This document shows, piece by piece, positions 2 through 28,594 of a stretch of DNA of 64,000 nucleotides. The DNA is from Gemmatimonadota bacterium. GTDB taxonomy: Bacteria; Gemmatimonadota; Gemmatimonadetes; Gemmatimonadales; Gemmatimonadaceae. The translations under genes were made by a program, and so were the position numbers. Below the pieces are notes generated by a model, which was given only the letters and a program-made list of their open reading frames with translations, searched no databases and was not told the DNA's origin. Numbering within the stretch: the first letter of the stretch is position 1; the number at the start of each line of letters is the position of its first letter. The stretch lies in assembly GCA_028287235.1 (NCBI GenBank), contig JAQBQB010000010.1, positions 1 through 64,000 of the forward strand, read 5' to 3'.

Positions 2-1009
<1,008 letters not shown>

Positions 1010-20950: not shown

Positions 20951-21019
20951 CGCGATCGCATGATTTGTGAGCGGTCGCGCCCCAACAATCCTGCTGACCC
21001 GACCCGCCCGAATCGGGAA

Positions 21020-21526
21020 ATGAACACTCGTCTGATCATCTCGCTGCTCTGTGCCGGTGCGCTCGCCTTCGCGTGCGGCCCCCGGTCGCGCTCGGAAGCG
21101 CCCTCCGCGCTCGCAACCGCGCAGCCCGTTCGCGTCGCCAGCGCCGCCGAACGCCCCCGCCGCCACGATAGTGCCAGCGCCCGCGCCGACGTCAAGCTCA
21201 CGTCGCAGCTCAAGGTCGACGTCGCACCGCGCGAAGTCCGCATCGCGCTCGACGTGAAGAACATCGGCGGCAAGCACGCCGAGATCGATTTCCCGAGCGG
21301 CCAGTCGTACGACATCGCGGTGGTCGATTCTGCGGGCCGCGAAGTGTGGCGCTGGGCCAAGGGCCGCATGTTCACGCAGAGCGTGCAGAACAAGCAGCTC
21401 GGCGGCGGCGAGTCGATGCAAGTCGCCGAGTCGTGGACGCCGAAGGCCGGGCGCTACGTCGCGATCGCGACGCTCACGAGCTCGAACTATCCGGTCGAAC
21501 AGCGCGCCGAGTTCGTCGTTCCGTAA
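21020..21526 (+). CDS. Lipoprotein with BsuPI-like domain
   Basis: A 168-residue predicted lipoprotein. The signal peptide ends in LAFAC (Cys at residue 20), a good lipobox. After an Ala/Arg-rich linker, residues about 60-168 form an immunoglobulin-like beta domain with VKNIGGKHAEIDFPSGQSYDI and VWRWAKGRMFTQ. These match the BsuPI family (intracellular proteinase inhibitor fold), often found in exported proteins of environmental bacteria. The role is unknown; protease inhibition is only a family-level suggestion. The ATG at 21020 is chosen because it begins the signal peptide; an upstream in-frame start adds a charged tail. Divergent from the atp operon. Confidence 0.82.
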   Translation: MNTRLIISLLCAGALAFACGPRSRSEAPSALATAQPVRVASAAERPRRHDSASARADVKLTSQLKVDVAPREVRIALDVKNIGGKHAEIDFPSGQSYDIAVVDSAGREVWRWAKGRMFTQSVQNKQLGGGESMQVAESWTPKAGRYVAIATLTSSNYPVEQRAEFVVP

Positions 21527-21559
21527 CGAACGCTTACACAAGAGCACACCGAACATCGC

Positions 21560-21590
21560 GAGCGGGCCATCTCAACGAGATGACCCGCTC
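21560..21590 (+). terminator. Hairpin after the lipoprotein gene
   Basis: A 13-bp stem with one mismatch (GAGCGGGCCATCT against AGATGACCCGCTC) and a 5-base loop, followed by TTACGTTT, 34 bp after the stop. It is a likely intrinsic terminator separating this gene from the MoxR gene. Confidence 0.75.
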
Positions 21591-21649
21591 TTACGTTTCA
21601 TGTTGGTTCGGTTAGGTTCCCCACACTTCCAGCCCCCGGAGCGCAACGA

Positions 21650-22654
21650 GTGGCAACGCGACAGCAGCCGAAGGACGACTCACGCGACGTCGAGCTACTC
21701 GATCAGTTGGCGCGCGCGCGGACCGCGCTCGTCGAGCAGATCGGGCGGCGCATCGTGGGCCAACACAAGATCGTCGACGATCTCGTGGCGGCGCTGCTCG
21801 CCGGTGGACACGTGTTGCTCGTGGGCGTGCCGGGTCTCGCCAAGACGCTGCTCGTGCAGACGGTGGCGCAAGCGCTCGACCTGCAGTTCTCGCGCGTGCA
21901 GTTCACCCCCGACCTGATGCCGAGCGACATCACCGGCACCGAGCTGCTCGAGGAAGACCACGCCACGGGCAAGCGCTTTTTCAAGTTTGCGAAAGGGCCG
22001 ATCTTCGGGAACATCGTGCTGGCCGACGAGATCAACCGCGCCCCGCCGAAGACGCAGGCGGCGCTGCTCCAGGCGATGCAGGAACACGCCGTCACGGCGG
22101 CGGGCACGACGCACCGCCTGCCCGAGCCGTTCTTCGTGCTCGCCACGCAGAACCCCATCGAACAGGAAGGCACGTACCCGCTTCCGGAGGCGCAGCTCGA
22201 CCGTTTCATGATGCAGCTCACCGTCGGCTACCCGACGCGCGAAGAGGAAGAGCGCATCGTGACCGCGACGACGAGCGACTTCGAGGTGGACATCAAGCCG
22301 GTGCTCGACGCACGGCAATTGATCGACCTGCAGCGTCTCGTGCGGCGCCTCCCTGCTCCGCCGAGCGTCGTGAGCTACGCGGTGAAGCTGGCACGGTCGA
22401 CGCGGCCGGGCACCGAAGAGGCGACGCCGCTCGTGAAGAAGTACGTGAGTTGGGGCGCCGGTCCCCGCGCGTCGCAGTATCTCATCCTCGGCGCCAAGGC
22501 GCGCGCGGCGATGGATGGCCGCGCGGTGCCGGATTTGGAGGATGTGAATGCGATGGCCGTGCCGGTGTTGAGCCATCGCGTCGTCGTGAACTTCCAGGCC
22601 GAGGCGGAAGGGATGTCGCCGGAGAAGCTGGTGACGGTGCCGAGCCGGCCGTAG
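21650..22654 (+). CDS. MoxR family AAA+ ATPase
   Basis: A 334-residue MoxR-type AAA+ ATPase, a chaperone class that usually works with von Willebrand A-domain proteins. Walker A is GVPGLAKT near residue 58, Walker B is IVLADEINRAPPKTQ, sensor 1 lies in FFVLATQNPIEQEGTYPLPEAQLDRF, and the lid domain follows. It starts with GTG at 21650, preceded by GGAG at 9 bases. MoxR genes are normally followed by DUF58 and VWA genes. Here the next 900 bp hold only small uncertain ORFs, so the gene is solitary or its partners are elsewhere. Confidence 0.93.
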   Translation: MATRQQPKDDSRDVELLDQLARARTALVEQIGRRIVGQHKIVDDLVAALLAGGHVLLVGVPGLAKTLLVQTVAQALDLQFSRVQFTPDLMPSDITGTELLEEDHATGKRFFKFAKGPIFGNIVLADEINRAPPKTQAALLQAMQEHAVTAAGTTHRLPEPFFVLATQNPIEQEGTYPLPEAQLDRFMMQLTVGYPTREEEERIVTATTSDFEVDIKPVLDARQLIDLQRLVRRLPAPPSVVSYAVKLARSTRPGTEEATPLVKKYVSWGAGPRASQYLILGAKARAAMDGRAVPDLEDVNAMAVPVLSHRVVVNFQAEAEGMSPEKLVTVPSRP

Positions 22655-23182: not shown

Positions 23183-23533
23183 TGGTCCGGAAGAATTGCG
23201 TCTTGTAGGCGTCACACGGTGACATGCGAATATCCTCATCAAATGATAACGATCCGGCATCGGCCAGGACGGTCATCAGCGCGTGTTGTGGGGTGGAGGT
23301 GGGGGTGGCGCGCAGGGCCGACGCCGGATCATGCCTCGCGAATACGGCAGGCGCCAGCGGATGAGGACAGCGACCGGTGGAGACGGCCAGACAGACTCCA
23401 TTGGAGTCCATCTGAGTGAAAATCTATCCGCCGTGCCGTCGTCGTTTGCGCGGCGTGAGCGCCTTCATTAGCGCGCTCTAACGATGGACTGGCGAATCTG
23501 CGCCCGTGAGGCGATGCTCTCGATCGCGCCGCG

Positions 23534-23577
23534 ATGACGCAGGCATGACGCAGTGATGACGCGATCGCCGATATTGG
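23534..23577 (+). promoter_or_regulatory. SARP-type heptamer repeats plus -10-like element
   Basis: Three exact copies of ATGACGC start at 23534, 23545 and 23556, an 11-bp period with 4-bp spacers. The last copy ends 8 bp before ATATTGG (23571-23577), a plausible -10. Known SARP regulators bind direct heptamer repeats at 11-bp period placed 8 bp from the -10. The downstream gene encodes a protein with a SARP-like N-terminus, so autoregulation is likely. That link is inference. Confidence 0.6.
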
Positions 23578-23620
23578 CGAAGCGTTACTTGCCATCGGTC
23601 GACCGGGGGGGGCTGGTCCG

Positions 23621-26600
23621 ATGATCTTCGTGTACACTCTAGGTGCGGCGCTGATCGACGCAGGAGACATGCGCGTCACGCCGGCATCCAACCGAAAGTT
23701 TGCGATGCTGCTCCATCTGTCGGCCGAGCCAGGGCGACGGGTGTCGAGGACGGCACTGCAAGATCTGGTATTCCCGGATCAGACCGAGAAGAACGCGAAG
23801 CATTCGCTGCGGGAGCTGGTCTATCAGTTTCGGCAGGCGGGCGTGCGGATCGCGTCAGATCCGCACGGCATCGAACTGGTACCGGGCGAAGTCGGGAGCG
23901 ATTACGCGGCGATGATCGAGCGGGAGCGGCTGGATGCGGATCAGATCGCGGCGGCTGCGGCGGGGTTTCTGCCTGGCTACGCGCCGGAGCACTCGGAGGC
24001 GTTTACGGAGTGGTTCGACGCGTATCGGTCGCGAGTGGTGTTGGAATTGAGTAAGAAGCTGTTGCTGGAGGTCGTCCGAGCGCGCAGCGCCGGCGAATGG
24101 GCGATCACGGAGCGTGCCGCGCGCGCGTGTCTGGTGCTGGATCCGCTGAATGAGGACGCGACGCTGGCGCTGGCGGAAATGTTGGCGATTGGGGGAGCTA
24201 AGGTGCAGGCGGTGAAGTTGTTGGATGACTACATGCTGGAGTTGGGTCCTAAGGCGAGAGACATTCGACTCCCGGCATCCGTGCTGAAGCGCCGGATCGG
24301 CGAGAAGATGCCGGATCACTATCGGCCGAAGGGGGATCTTCCGTATATCGGGCGCGAAGATGAGATGCGGCGACTTCGGCAGATGTTCGACGCAGCACGT
24401 ATAGGCGAGAGTATTTGCGTCGTGCTCGCGGGCGAACCCGGAATCGGAAAGACGCGACTTGCCGCGGAGTTCAGCGTGTTAGCGGCTGTAGAAGGCGCGC
24501 ATGTGCTTCGCGTTGCCTTGCAGCCGGCGGACGTTCGTCGGCCGATGAGCGTCTTCCTGGAACTGGTGCCGATGTTGTTGGAACTTCCGGGGGCGCTGGG
24601 CTGTTCGCCGGGATCAATGGCGGCGCTGGCGCGAATTACCGGCCGCCAGTTGTCAGGAGAAACTTCACTCGAGGATCGTGAGCCCGAGTTCATCTCGTAC
24701 GCGATCGCAACATCGATTGCGGATCTGTTCGATGCGATCGGTTCGGAGTCCGCCGTAGTGGTTGTCGTCGAGGATGCGCACTGGCTCGATGAGCATTCAA
24801 CGCGCGCAATACTGGAACTCATTGCGTCCACTCGGCCACGACGTCTGATGATCATCGCGACAACTCGAGACGGTTCCCAACTTCAGCAGTTTGGCCGTCA
24901 TGTCGACCGGCTCGCTGCCATACCGATTGAAAGACTTCGATCGGCGGCGAGTCGTGAACTGTTGGCGGCCGCGATGGGCAGCGCACCAGGAGAGTCAGAC
25001 GTGATGTTGCGGAACTGGATTGCTGATACGGCCAATGGGAATCCGCTGTTTCTCGTGTCGCTTGTCGCGCACTATCGCACGACGCAGAAGAAATTTGAGG
25101 TTCCCGCCGGCCTTCGTGATTTGCTTGGCGCCCGATTGGGCAGTTTAAGCCGCAGGGCGACTATCGCGCTACAAACCTGCGTCGCACTCGGGCGGCGGTG
25201 TTCGGTCGATCGCCTGCGCACGTGTCTCGACATGGCGCACATTGATTTGCTGACATGCATCGCCGAATTGGATGCAGCGTACGTAATACTGTTTGAGCAG
25301 GATCAGGTCCTGCCGTCGCACCCATTGCTGGCGGAAGTTTTGTTGGATCGGTCTTCCGACGTCACCAGAAAACTCACGCACTTTCGAGTGGCGGAGATCC
25401 TCCAAGCGGAAGCTAGCACGACGCACGACTCGCTGCTGGCATGGGACTGCGCTGAGCATTGGGCAATCGCCGGCGAGGATGAGCGTGCGTTGACCGCGTT
25501 TCGCGTGTGCGCAGAGCAAGCAAAGGCAATCGGACGCACGCGCGCTGCCGCCGAAATTCTGCTTCGCGCCGCGAGCTTGAACATTTCGACGGACACTCGC
25601 CTACAGACGCTTCGCGACACGATGTACATGGCGGCGTCCGGCGGCGAGTACGATTTGGTCGTAGAAGCGGCAAATCTCGCTCGGCCGCTAACCATAGACT
25701 CCATCCACGATGATCTCGAACTCGCGGAATTGCGGGCGTCGGTTGCGATGCTTGACGATTCGAACGACGTGCAGCTTCGACTAGTCAAGTGCACAACCGA
25801 TCCTGGGACTTCGGCCGAGCACCGCGCACAAGCCGCCCTCATGCTTACCAAATATTCAGATGCCTATTGGTGCCCGGACGAGGCTGCCATCGCCGCGCAC
25901 GCAATGGGCACCCTCGACATGGGCGCCGTCAGCAGAACAGTTGCACTCGAATATACGATGGTTTACCACATCGCGTTCGGCGACGAGGATACTGCGGTTG
26001 AGGCGGCCCGATCCCTACGCGACCATTCGGCCAGCTTGGCTCCAGCCGCAGCCGCGAGCGCGCTCATTAACACGGCAATCTTGTTCTGGCGTGCTGGCCG
26101 CCCGGCGGAGTGTGTCGAGGCGTACATCGACGCCTATATGACGGCAGAAAGATCCGGGTCGTTTCGACTCACCAGCATAGCCGCACTCCGACTCGCCGGC
26201 CTCTACTACGATCTTGGTGACTTCGAATCGGCAAACACTTGGCACGCTCGAGACGAAGCGCTTTCCGCGAAATACCCAGATCATTCGGACCGGATTGAAA
26301 GCACAATACTCGCTATAAGCATAGCATTGAGCCAAGCAAACGCATCGCTGGCTGCTGCCCTAATAGCAGAAGGCGAAAGCCGCGGAGCATTTGGATCTGC
26401 TCATCGTCAACGATGGCTGCGTGTCTTCAAATTGCGGCTAAGCCATTTGACGCGGCGCGTTCCGCTTCCAGAATTTCAGATACGCGCACTGGTCGGCGAC
26501 GGCTGTCTCAAACTAATATCGGGAGTCGAGGATGAAGAGATCTCCGCGGCGAGCCTCGAACTCCTTGCTCAGAATCGACGAGACGAAGCGCAACGGATTC

Positions 26601-26728
26601 TCGCAGACTACGTCAACACTCGTCGCCGGTGCAAAGCTCCGTTGGGGTGGGCACTGCAGCTCGCGATGAAACGATGCGAGTTTGCGTATTCTATTCCTCT
26701 CGCGGACTATGGATACGCCGACCGATGA
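23621..26728 (+). CDS. BTAD/SARP-type regulator with AAA ATPase and TPR-like region
   Basis: A 1035-residue multidomain regulator. Residues 1-95 look like an OmpR/SARP winged helix (TPASNRKFAMLLHLSAEPGR, then AKHSLRELVYQFRQ). Residues 95-240 form the bacterial transcriptional activator (BTAD) helical domain. A linker leads to IGREDEMRRL and an ATPase with Walker A GEPGIGKT near residue 275 and Walker B VVVVVEDAHWLDEH. The last 450 residues are helical repeats of TPR type with no C-terminal LuxR helix-turn-helix. It should be a cytoplasmic signal-integrating activator (STAND-like). Codon use becomes more A/T-rich than in flanking operons. SARP-like heptamers lie upstream, and an HD-GYP gene is convergent 45 bp downstream. 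Confidence 0.87.
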   Translation: MIFVYTLGAALIDAGDMRVTPASNRKFAMLLHLSAEPGRRVSRTALQDLVFPDQTEKNAKHSLRELVYQFRQAGVRIASDPHGIELVPGEVGSDYAAMIERERLDADQIAAAAAGFLPGYAPEHSEAFTEWFDAYRSRVVLELSKKLLLEVVRARSAGEWAITERAARACLVLDPLNEDATLALAEMLAIGGAKVQAVKLLDDYMLELGPKARDIRLPASVLKRRIGEKMPDHYRPKGDLPYIGREDEMRRLRQMFDAARIGESICVVLAGEPGIGKTRLAAEFSVLAAVEGAHVLRVALQPADVRRPMSVFLELVPMLLELPGALGCSPGSMAALARITGRQLSGETSLEDREPEFISYAIATSIADLFDAIGSESAVVVVVEDAHWLDEHSTRAILELIASTRPRRLMIIATTRDGSQLQQFGRHVDRLAAIPIERLRSAASRELLAAAMGSAPGESDVMLRNWIADTANGNPLFLVSLVAHYRTTQKKFEVPAGLRDLLGARLGSLSRRATIALQTCVALGRRCSVDRLRTCLDMAHIDLLTCIAELDAAYVILFEQDQVLPSHPLLAEVLLDRSSDVTRKLTHFRVAEILQAEASTTHDSLLAWDCAEHWAIAGEDERALTAFRVCAEQAKAIGRTRAAAEILLRAASLNISTDTRLQTLRDTMYMAASGGEYDLVVEAANLARPLTIDSIHDDLELAELRASVAMLDDSNDVQLRLVKCTTDPGTSAEHRAQAALMLTKYSDAYWCPDEAAIAAHAMGTLDMGAVSRTVALEYTMVYHIAFGDEDTAVEAARSLRDHSASLAPAAAASALINTAILFWRAGRPAECVEAYIDAYMTAERSGSFRLTSIAALRLAGLYYDLGDFESANTWHARDEALSAKYPDHSDRIESTILAISIALSQANASLAAALIAEGESRGAFGSAHRQRWLRVFKLRLSHLTRRVPLPEFQIRALVGDGCLKLISGVEDEEISAASLELLAQNRRDEAQRILADYVNTRRRCKAPLGWALQLAMKRCEFAYSIPLADYGYADR

Positions 26729-26773: not shown

Positions 26774-28150
26774 CTACACACCGTTCGCTTTCCGAAGGAC
26801 CTCCGGAAATTCACTCTGTCGCCGCGAACCCACCACTGAGAACTTGGGGCGTTCCACAGGCTCGATCCCGATCGCGGGGGAGGCGAATAGCGATGACCAG
26901 AGTGGGCTCGACAAAAGCCGATCCGCGATCGTCGGGTCAAACTGAGACCCGCGACAGCGAACTACCTCGCCGCGCACTTCCGCTTCCGTCAGTGGCCGAC
27001 GGTATGGGCGCTCCGTTGTCATCGCGTCGATGGTATCCGCGAATCGAATGACGCGCGACGCCAGCGGGATCAGTTCTCCGGCAAGCGCGGTGGGGTATCC
27101 GGTCCCGTCCCAGTTTTCGTGATGATGGCGAATGGCCGGGACGATGTCGCGCAGGCGCGTCATAGTAGCAACGAGCTTGGCACCATCTTCCGGGTGATCC
27201 TGGATGATTGCCCACTCTTCAGGATTCAGCTTGTCCTGTTTTGCAAGTACGGCGGCGTACTTCTCGTAGATTTTTCCGACATCATGAAGTAGGGCCGCCC
27301 GACCTATCTCCTCAACCTGCCTGTCCGACAGGTCCAGCGCCCGAGCGATAATCGTCGAATAGCGCTGGACGCGACGAGAATGACCTGATGTATACGGGTC
27401 GCGAGCTTCAAGCGACTTGACCATCAGCTCGAGAAGCTCTTCGTTCGTTCTCTCAAGCTCGAGGTTGATGCGATGAACTTGGCGCAATCCCAAGATCGGG
27501 ACCCAGAGAGCCGCCGCCGCGATCGGCCCGAAAGCAGCATACACCCAAGCAAAAACAAAAATGAGAGGTGTGGTGATAAAGTCGAGAACTACCGTCGATC
27601 GACTCCCCTCGATTATTACCGTCTTGGGGGACCTCCCCGACGCAAGCGCTATCGCGACGAAAATGACCAGATTATTAACAAGGAAACCGATGACGAACGC
27701 AGCGACCGCAGGTGCACCGAATTCGGCGGTCACATGTGTGAGGCTCGTCTTCTGCGCCGCGTTGAACAGGCTCGCACCACCTAGACCCAGGTAGACGAGA
27801 ATCGCTGTTGCTTCCATCAGCACGTATGCTGCTGTGTTGAGCACCTTCTTAATCGCTTGTCGGCCTGACGAAGCCTCCATGACGACTCGAACAAGCGCGA
27901 CACCGAGGATGCTTGGCCACCCCGGCACCACCACTGCGGCGGCAAAGTACGGGATATACCCGATAGTTCCGACGGCTTTGAACGGTAAGACAAAGCTTAA
28001 GAGTTCGCCCGCCACCGCGAGCGCACAAAGCAACAACGCGTCCGCCACCCCCGATCCAGCGATCGGTGGTGCCAAAACTATTACTCCGGCCGTTGCAATC
28101 ACGGCCAGAATCGCAATGGCAGTTACGTAAATCTCGACGCGACGTTGCAT
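26774..28150 (-). CDS. Membrane-anchored HD-GYP domain phosphodiesterase
   Basis: A 458-residue protein with about eight N-terminal membrane helices (residues 1-230, sensor-like), a short coiled linker (NLELERTNEELLELMVKSLEARD) and an HD-GYP domain. Catalytic motifs are complete: HSRRVQRYS, HDVGKIYEKY, QDHPEDGAKL, HHHENWDGTGYP and FADTIDAMTTERPYR. HD-GYP enzymes hydrolyse cyclic di-GMP or related dinucleotides. The ATG at 28150 is chosen, with AGGGGG about 12 bases upstream; a GTG at 28168 is possible. It shares the A/T-richer composition of the convergent BTAD regulator and faces it, so the pair may be a transferred signalling module. Confidence 0.88.
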   Translation of the reverse strand: MQRRVEIYVTAIAILAVIATAGVIVLAPPIAGSGVADALLLCALAVAGELLSFVLPFKAVGTIGYIPYFAAAVVVPGWPSILGVALVRVVMEASSGRQAIKKVLNTAAYVLMEATAILVYLGLGGASLFNAAQKTSLTHVTAEFGAPAVAAFVIGFLVNNLVIFVAIALASGRSPKTVIIEGSRSTVVLDFITTPLIFVFAWVYAAFGPIAAAALWVPILGLRQVHRINLELERTNEELLELMVKSLEARDPYTSGHSRRVQRYSTIIARALDLSDRQVEEIGRAALLHDVGKIYEKYAAVLAKQDKLNPEEWAIIQDHPEDGAKLVATMTRLRDIVPAIRHHHENWDGTGYPTALAGELIPLASRVIRFADTIDAMTTERPYRRPLTEAEVRGEVVRCRGSQFDPTIADRLLSSPLWSSLFASPAIGIEPVERPKFSVVGSRRQSEFPEVLRKANGV

Positions 28151-28594
28151 AAGGAGGGACCCCCTCACTCGTCTATGCCCAGAGAATTAATCCGTTTCCG
28201 AAGACAGTCCTGGAAAGGGTTTTCATCTGCGTCACCCCCTTTGTACAGCAAGTCGCACGTCGCCGTGCGCTCCAAAGTGAGCTCCGCTCAACTACTGGAC
28301 GGAATTGTCCTCCGCTCGTCTTCGCTTGGCGAGGGAGGGGGTCTTATTTCGAGTTGTCTAAATAGGTGTGTGGGATGCTGTCGTTCCGTGAACGGATCCG
28401 GCTACCGGGACTCGCATTCACGCATTCACCACCCGCCACAGCATCGCGACTTCGCGGCCGTCAGACGGCACCACCAAACGGCTCCGATTCAACCCGAGCC
28501 ATTCACTGCAACTATGCCAACCAGTGCATCCATTCTATTCTCGGCGCGCTGGCCATTCCACCCGCGCCGCTCATCAATCCTGTAACAGTCCGTC
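28151..28594. other. 444-bp region without a recognised gene
   Basis: This stretch upstream of the HD-GYP gene is less GC-rich than the surroundings. An imperfect inverted repeat GATGCTGT/ACAGCATC sits at about 28374-28445. No convincing ORF, tRNA or riboswitch was found. It should contain the HD-GYP promoter. Confidence 0.5.

Follow-up and report, generated by a model that had tools for sequence, protein, structure and literature searches.

The window, by which we mean the whole 64-kb stretch of DNA that was analyzed, carries a gene for a SARP-STAND regulator, preceded on the same strand by an array of three exact heptamers in the order ATGACGC-AGGC-ATGACGC-AGTG-ATGACGC (11-bp period, 23534-23562; Table 1). 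Nowhere else in the 64 kb does a heptamer recur three times exactly at period 11, and 60 simulated sequences matched to the window in dinucleotide composition contained no such array; allowing up to three mismatches, 0.03 occurrences of the pattern would be expected per window. The three copies, their period and their 4-bp spacers are as described in the first-pass annotation of this DNA, which had also placed a -10-like element, ATATTGG, just 3' of the last heptamer; such an element is present there, although the overlapping GATATT, 7 bp away, is the better fit. No -35 hexamer is evident, and the repeats occupy the -35 region. Directly before the start codon lies a run of eight G (23605-23612), a possible ribosome-binding or slippage element, and L041, L042 and L043, orthologues from the same genus, likewise have G-runs ahead of the start codon. 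The regulator gene is flanked upstream by BsuPI and MoxR ATPase genes (20960-22654, + strand) and downstream by a convergent HD-domain (HD_5) gene (26774-28168, - strand); parts of this neighbourhood seem, by eye, to be kept around several orthologues (for example, L041, L044, L046 and L056).

Table 1. Repeat array, regulator domains and related genes. Positions refer to the window unless residues, a genome (G) or a contig (C) are given; G000 is the window's own genome.
Feature	Position	Strand	Remarks
Degenerate fourth unit, ATCGCGC	23523-23529	+	5/7 match; precedes the exact units in the same 11-bp register
Repeat unit 1, ATGACGC	23534-23540	+	Exact; followed by spacer AGGC
Repeat unit 2, ATGACGC	23545-23551	+	Exact; followed by spacer AGTG; first TGACG of the family-conserved pair
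Repeat unit 3, ATGACGC	23556-23562	+	Exact; second, promoter-proximal TGACG of the family-conserved pair
-10-like element, GATATT	23570-23575	+	4/6 match to TATAAT; 7 bp past the last heptamer; homologues A/T/T-enriched at matching columns
SARP-STAND regulator gene	23621-26728	+	1035 aa; start codon at 23621
Predicted SARP domain	23621-24310	+	AlphaFold2 model, structure comparison, Pfam BTAD in orthologues
Predicted OmpR-type winged helix	residues 1-93		Within SARP domain; recognition helix 56-72, NAKHSLRELVYQF
Predicted helical BTAD	residues about 94-230		Within SARP domain
AAA_16/STAND-type ATPase domain	24347-24856 (residues 243-412)	+	Pfam AAA_16, E 1.7e-17
TPR-like stretch	26054-26245 (residues 812-875)	+	Pfam TPR_12, E 9e-4, under the curated cut-off (weak)
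AraC-like regulator gene (L311)	G000:C9:50166-51050		Box at C9:51124-51139; HTH_18 C-terminus; receiver-like N-terminus by eye
Paralogue L250	G000:C30		RLRW helix; heptamer CGTGAGC, period 11
Paralogue L254	G003		RLRW helix; heptamer GTTAGCG, period 11
Paralogue L255	G003		RLRW helix; heptamer TGAGCGA, period 11
Paralogue L256	G003		RLRW helix; heptamer TGAGCGC, period 11

The Pfam BTAD profile gave no match to the 1035-aa protein at E ≤ 1 and matched the N-termini of 10 of 22 orthologues. A PDB sequence search with a profile of the N-terminal region returned designed TPRs and weak winged helices only; this search being uninformative, fold comparison was needed for the N-terminus. The AlphaFold2 model of residues 1-235, obtained from the orthologue alignment (mean pLDDT 92), consists of strands, a winged helix and TPR-like helices, in that order. 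The solved structure closest to the model is the SARP domain of AfsR (8k60; Z 13.3, 221 residues, 15% identity), followed by another AfsR SARP domain structure (8hvr; Z 12.9, 218 residues) and EmbR (2fez; Z 11.9, 221 residues), each aligning over residues 1 to about 231; the remaining high-scoring structures cover mainly the TPR-like half. EmbR of Mycobacterium tuberculosis has the same winged helix and BTAD fold, but carries an FHA domain where the window protein has the ATPase and TPR-like parts. Together with the AAA_16 match, all parts of a large SARP are represented, namely, the winged helix and BTA domain, the NOD/STAND ATPase and, weakly, the TPR, and on the structural model the regulator has the architecture of a large SARP. 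The earlier proposal that the gene next to the array encodes a SARP/BTAD-type winged helix joined to an ATPase and TPR-like repeats is supported. A scan of named genomes for relatives of the regulator added few orthologues, most of its matches being to ATPases of Actinobacteria.

Conservation ahead of orthologues had been named beforehand as a test that could refute the proposed operator, and the repeats survived it. Among the 124 homologues from genomes of Gemmatimonadaceae for which the 260 bp upstream were analyzed, 86 have TGACG-N6-TGACG and 105 (about 85%) have the relaxed core TGAC-N7-TGAC, in which the fifth base is free; the regions were cut from predicted match starts, so that a box could escape detection where the start of the gene was called wrongly. 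The strict pattern is absent from the opposite strand of all 124 upstream regions, and a TGACG pair at any other gap from 0 to 19 occurs in only 0-3 of them. In a count of repeated 5-mers made without a prior motif, TGACG at gap 6 ranked first, the next entries being its own overlaps. Most boxes lie 50-125 nt ahead of the modelled start, and the box is absent from eight homologues with a normal recognition helix. The alignment of the family has TGACG at positions 0 and 11 and a -10-like TAnnTT at 25-30 (A at 25-26 and TT at 29-30), at a fixed distance of about 9-10 bp past the second TGACG, with no evident -35 in the box-bearing promoters. The spacers between the conserved cores vary freely across homologues. 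Both repeats have the same flank preferences, T just before TGACG being nearly excluded in each (1% and 0%), which is what two copies of one module, bound as a tandem dimer, would produce. Two units are the rule in the family, and the three exact units of the window are unusual.

In the AfsR box of Streptomyces coelicolor, two 11-bp repeats are centred at -29.5, with the upstream one overlapping the -35 element, and in SARP boxes generally the 3' repeat lies 8 bp from the -10 (PMC10936776). In the PimR operator of Streptomyces natalensis, heptamers and 4-nt spacers alternate as they do in the window, with three heptamers in all (PMC5930380). The family alignment matches the arrangement of the AfsR and PimR sites, but with a different core; an 11- or 22-bp period and a 3' repeat about 8 bp from the -10, the features by which SARP target promoters are recognized, were found in both the window and the family, so that the likeness to Streptomyces SARP sites claimed at first reading holds for the 7+4 repeats as well as for their distance to the -10. 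AfsR has, like the window protein, a SARP domain, a nucleotide-binding domain and TPR, but it belongs to another phylum and is about 15-17% identical, and here the box has a TGACG core and is found ahead of the gene for the regulator itself and of an AraC-like gene. PimR, a SARP-LAL protein, differs in that its heptamer is CGGCAAG, its site lies upstream of the pimM -35 rather than overlapping it, and it acts on another gene, one belonging to an antibiotic cluster. Large SARPs usually, though not by definition, control antibiotic biosynthesis; the annotated genes around the window's regulator are those for BsuPI, the MoxR ATPase and the HD domain.

The recognition helix and the box appear to vary together. 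All box-bearing homologues have R followed by Q, E, D or H at helix positions 64-65. Paralogues with an RLRW helix lack TGACG, and four of the six have other exact heptamers, of the TGAGCG/TTAGCG type, at the same period (Table 1). On the tree, this covariation comes down to roughly three independent changes of the helix, and it does not reach significance once phylogeny is corrected for, a correction that used a stricter residue rule by which a box-bearing clade was flagged as well; we regard the association, read from sequences, as suggestive. Among 78 more distant BTAD paralogues, an exact 7-mer repeat at period 11 precedes 15 genes, whereas control periods average 1.8 (Poisson 7e-10) and random pieces of the window give 0.28; period 22 is the second highest among non-multiples of three. 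The heptamers differ between these paralogues (for example, three copies of GCGTGAA in L451 and three of TCTCGCC in L361). These observations support the view that BTAD paralogue genes may, as a rule, carry operators of SARP geometry, each with its own sequence. Some distant paralogues (L370 and L350) have repeats of the GTCA type spaced at 11 bp (GGTCAGA and AGTCAGA), which correspond to the TGAC core in reverse complement, and TGAC-N7-TGAC was seen on the opposite strand in 7 of the 78.

The box is not confined to SARP-STAND genes. A search for the box with a required -10 gave 19 sites in eight genomes (the reversed pattern gave none), six of which stand ahead of one conserved AraC-like gene. 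This gene is present in 177 of the 179 genomes of the family. Of 70 orthologues tested, 40 have the exact TGACG-N6-TGACG, 23 match it at 9 of 10 positions and 7 at 8 of 10, and the boxes of the 63 orthologues with at least 9 matches are mostly followed by a -10. At the fifth base of the repeat, the choice between G and A in the SARP boxes is independent of that in the AraC boxes of the same genome, and it gave no pointer to the binder. The same box ahead of the AraC-like gene means that it is not specific to the SARP-STAND gene. Furthermore, the AraC-like gene keeps the box in G112, G122 and G117, where no SARP-type winged helix was found (several genomes are incomplete; G112 is given as 97% and G122 as 95% complete). 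A second reader of TGACG-N6-TGACG must therefore exist, and the SARP protein was rejected as the sole reader of every TGACG box. The direct autoregulation suggested by the first-pass annotation is the likeliest reading, held with reservation: the box tracks the recognition helix through some three independent changes, but the same box occurs before the AraC-like gene in SARP-less genomes.

We lean towards the view that the SARP-STAND protein acts directly on its own gene. The three heptamers would be a SARP-type operator that, with the -10 at 23570, forms an activator-dependent promoter, and the most likely binder is the product of the gene itself. Two SARP domains, or up to three in the window, would line one face of the DNA, head to tail and one helical turn apart, covering the -35 region to within about 8 bp of the -10, and would recruit RNA polymerase. 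The regulator would thereby boost its own transcription once the ATPase/TPR part permits, the ATPase presumably acting as the gate. It is the position of the box that points to activation rather than repression. The same SARP protein probably also controls a few further promoters that carry this box, including that of the AraC-like gene. As a tentative generalization, which we hold to be possible though doubtful, the AfsR-like SARP-STAND paralogues of Gemmatimonadota may be a large group of self-activating switches, each reading a period-11 heptamer of its own ahead of its own gene; the TGACG member would be linked with the nearly universal AraC-like regulator by a common box, an operator then read by two unrelated families of DNA-binding proteins.

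The box might instead be the operator of the AraC-like regulator, which would control its own gene as well as the SARP-STAND gene in genomes that have one; with its pair of helix-turn-helix motifs, it would touch the two TGACG units, one turn apart. The wide occurrence of this gene with its box, and the persistence of the box where SARP proteins are absent, speak for such an arrangement, as do the TGAC-type box at all three AraC-like copies in G180, the lack of the box at a paralogue with a changed helix, SSPQSFGRMV (G009/G203), and the slightly greater similarity of SARP and AraC boxes from the same genome than in within-genus shuffles (p 0.02). However, the equal flank preferences of the half-sites fit two copies of one module more readily than two different helix-turn-helix motifs, and the other heptamers at exactly 11 bp in SARP paralogues with other helices would be left unexplained, so we judge this explanation rather unlikely. 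Less likely still is that another OmpR-type winged-helix regulator reads TGACG-N6-TGACG in all of these genomes, with the SARP-STAND and AraC-like genes both among its targets. Sites of OmpR and PhoB are direct repeats at an 11-bp period read by tandem winged helices, and a reader of this kind would fit the boxes in genomes lacking SARP proteins; nevertheless, the OmpR-type regulators of G112 number just two, one PhoB-like and one CusR-like in sequence, and the box is missing from the promoters of both. A PhoB-type box was considered specifically and rejected on these grounds and because no phosphate genes were recognized behind the intergenic sites inspected in G000, G112 and G122; the box core also differs from that of PhoB/OmpR sites, and the window protein has no receiver domain.

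Two further explanations concern the array itself. The SARP protein could bind the box and repress its own gene, in negative autoregulation, and the site does overlap the -35 region and come near the -10, as a repressor site could; we consider this very improbable, given the lack of an evident -35 and the fixed distance between box and -10, as at SARP-activated promoters (PMC10936776). The array could also be a chance tandem duplication without function. Short exact repeats can originate by slippage, but a core common to 86 of the 124 homologues, in one spacing and one orientation and with freely varying spacers, is hardly what this would leave behind, and we rejected chance duplication on this conservation together with the window and simulation statistics, rating its probability as next to nil.

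The kind of protein and the repeat geometry were already known; new to us are the sequence of the core, the phylum, the presence of the box across the family and its connection with the AraC-like gene. In the open-access literature (subscription papers were outside the search), no paper was found linking Gemmatimonadota to SARP or BTAD regulators; the few papers naming both "Gemmatimonadota" and "BTAD" are, by title, ecological or methodological, and neither a transcription start map nor described operators of the phylum were found. HilA of Salmonella is a BTAD-like precedent outside Actinobacteria. The proposal that SARP-like recognition exists outside Actinobacteria is supported by the 7+4 geometry, the SARP-type regulator and the conservation in the family; the 7+4 repeat code of SARP activators would, then, not be confined to Actinobacteria, the 11-base code being found in a different phylum as well. 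For Gemmatimonadota, the analysis yields a family-wide cis-element of defined geometry and a handful of predicted target genes. The box common to SARP-STAND and AraC-like genes outlines a small, testable network, and the differing helices and heptamers among paralogues are a natural data set on DNA choice by OmpR/SARP winged helices.

Among the other candidate targets in the window's genome are two uncharacterized genes, L076 (G000:C6:84233) and L085 (G000:C22:24679), whose products are 45% identical and fall into no Pfam family; an ATGACGC-N4-ATGACGC box lies immediately upstream of both genes. A further box lies 1.2 kb beyond the L076 site, at C6:85406. The putative targets L073 and L077 were also considered as one protein family, which their comparison did not support. 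Another box, at G000:C4:470487-470517 (L074/L304), has TTACACT as the -10, and the next called ORF, approximately 300 bp downstream, encodes a SpoIIM-family membrane protein (Pfam E 3e-13). The sequence TGACGCCGCCCTGACC is identical in two genomes (L439, G112:C3:177636, and G122:C27:55649); the copy in G112 lies about 100 bp ahead of a rimP-looking ORF, with TATCAT downstream, and might mark a further target.
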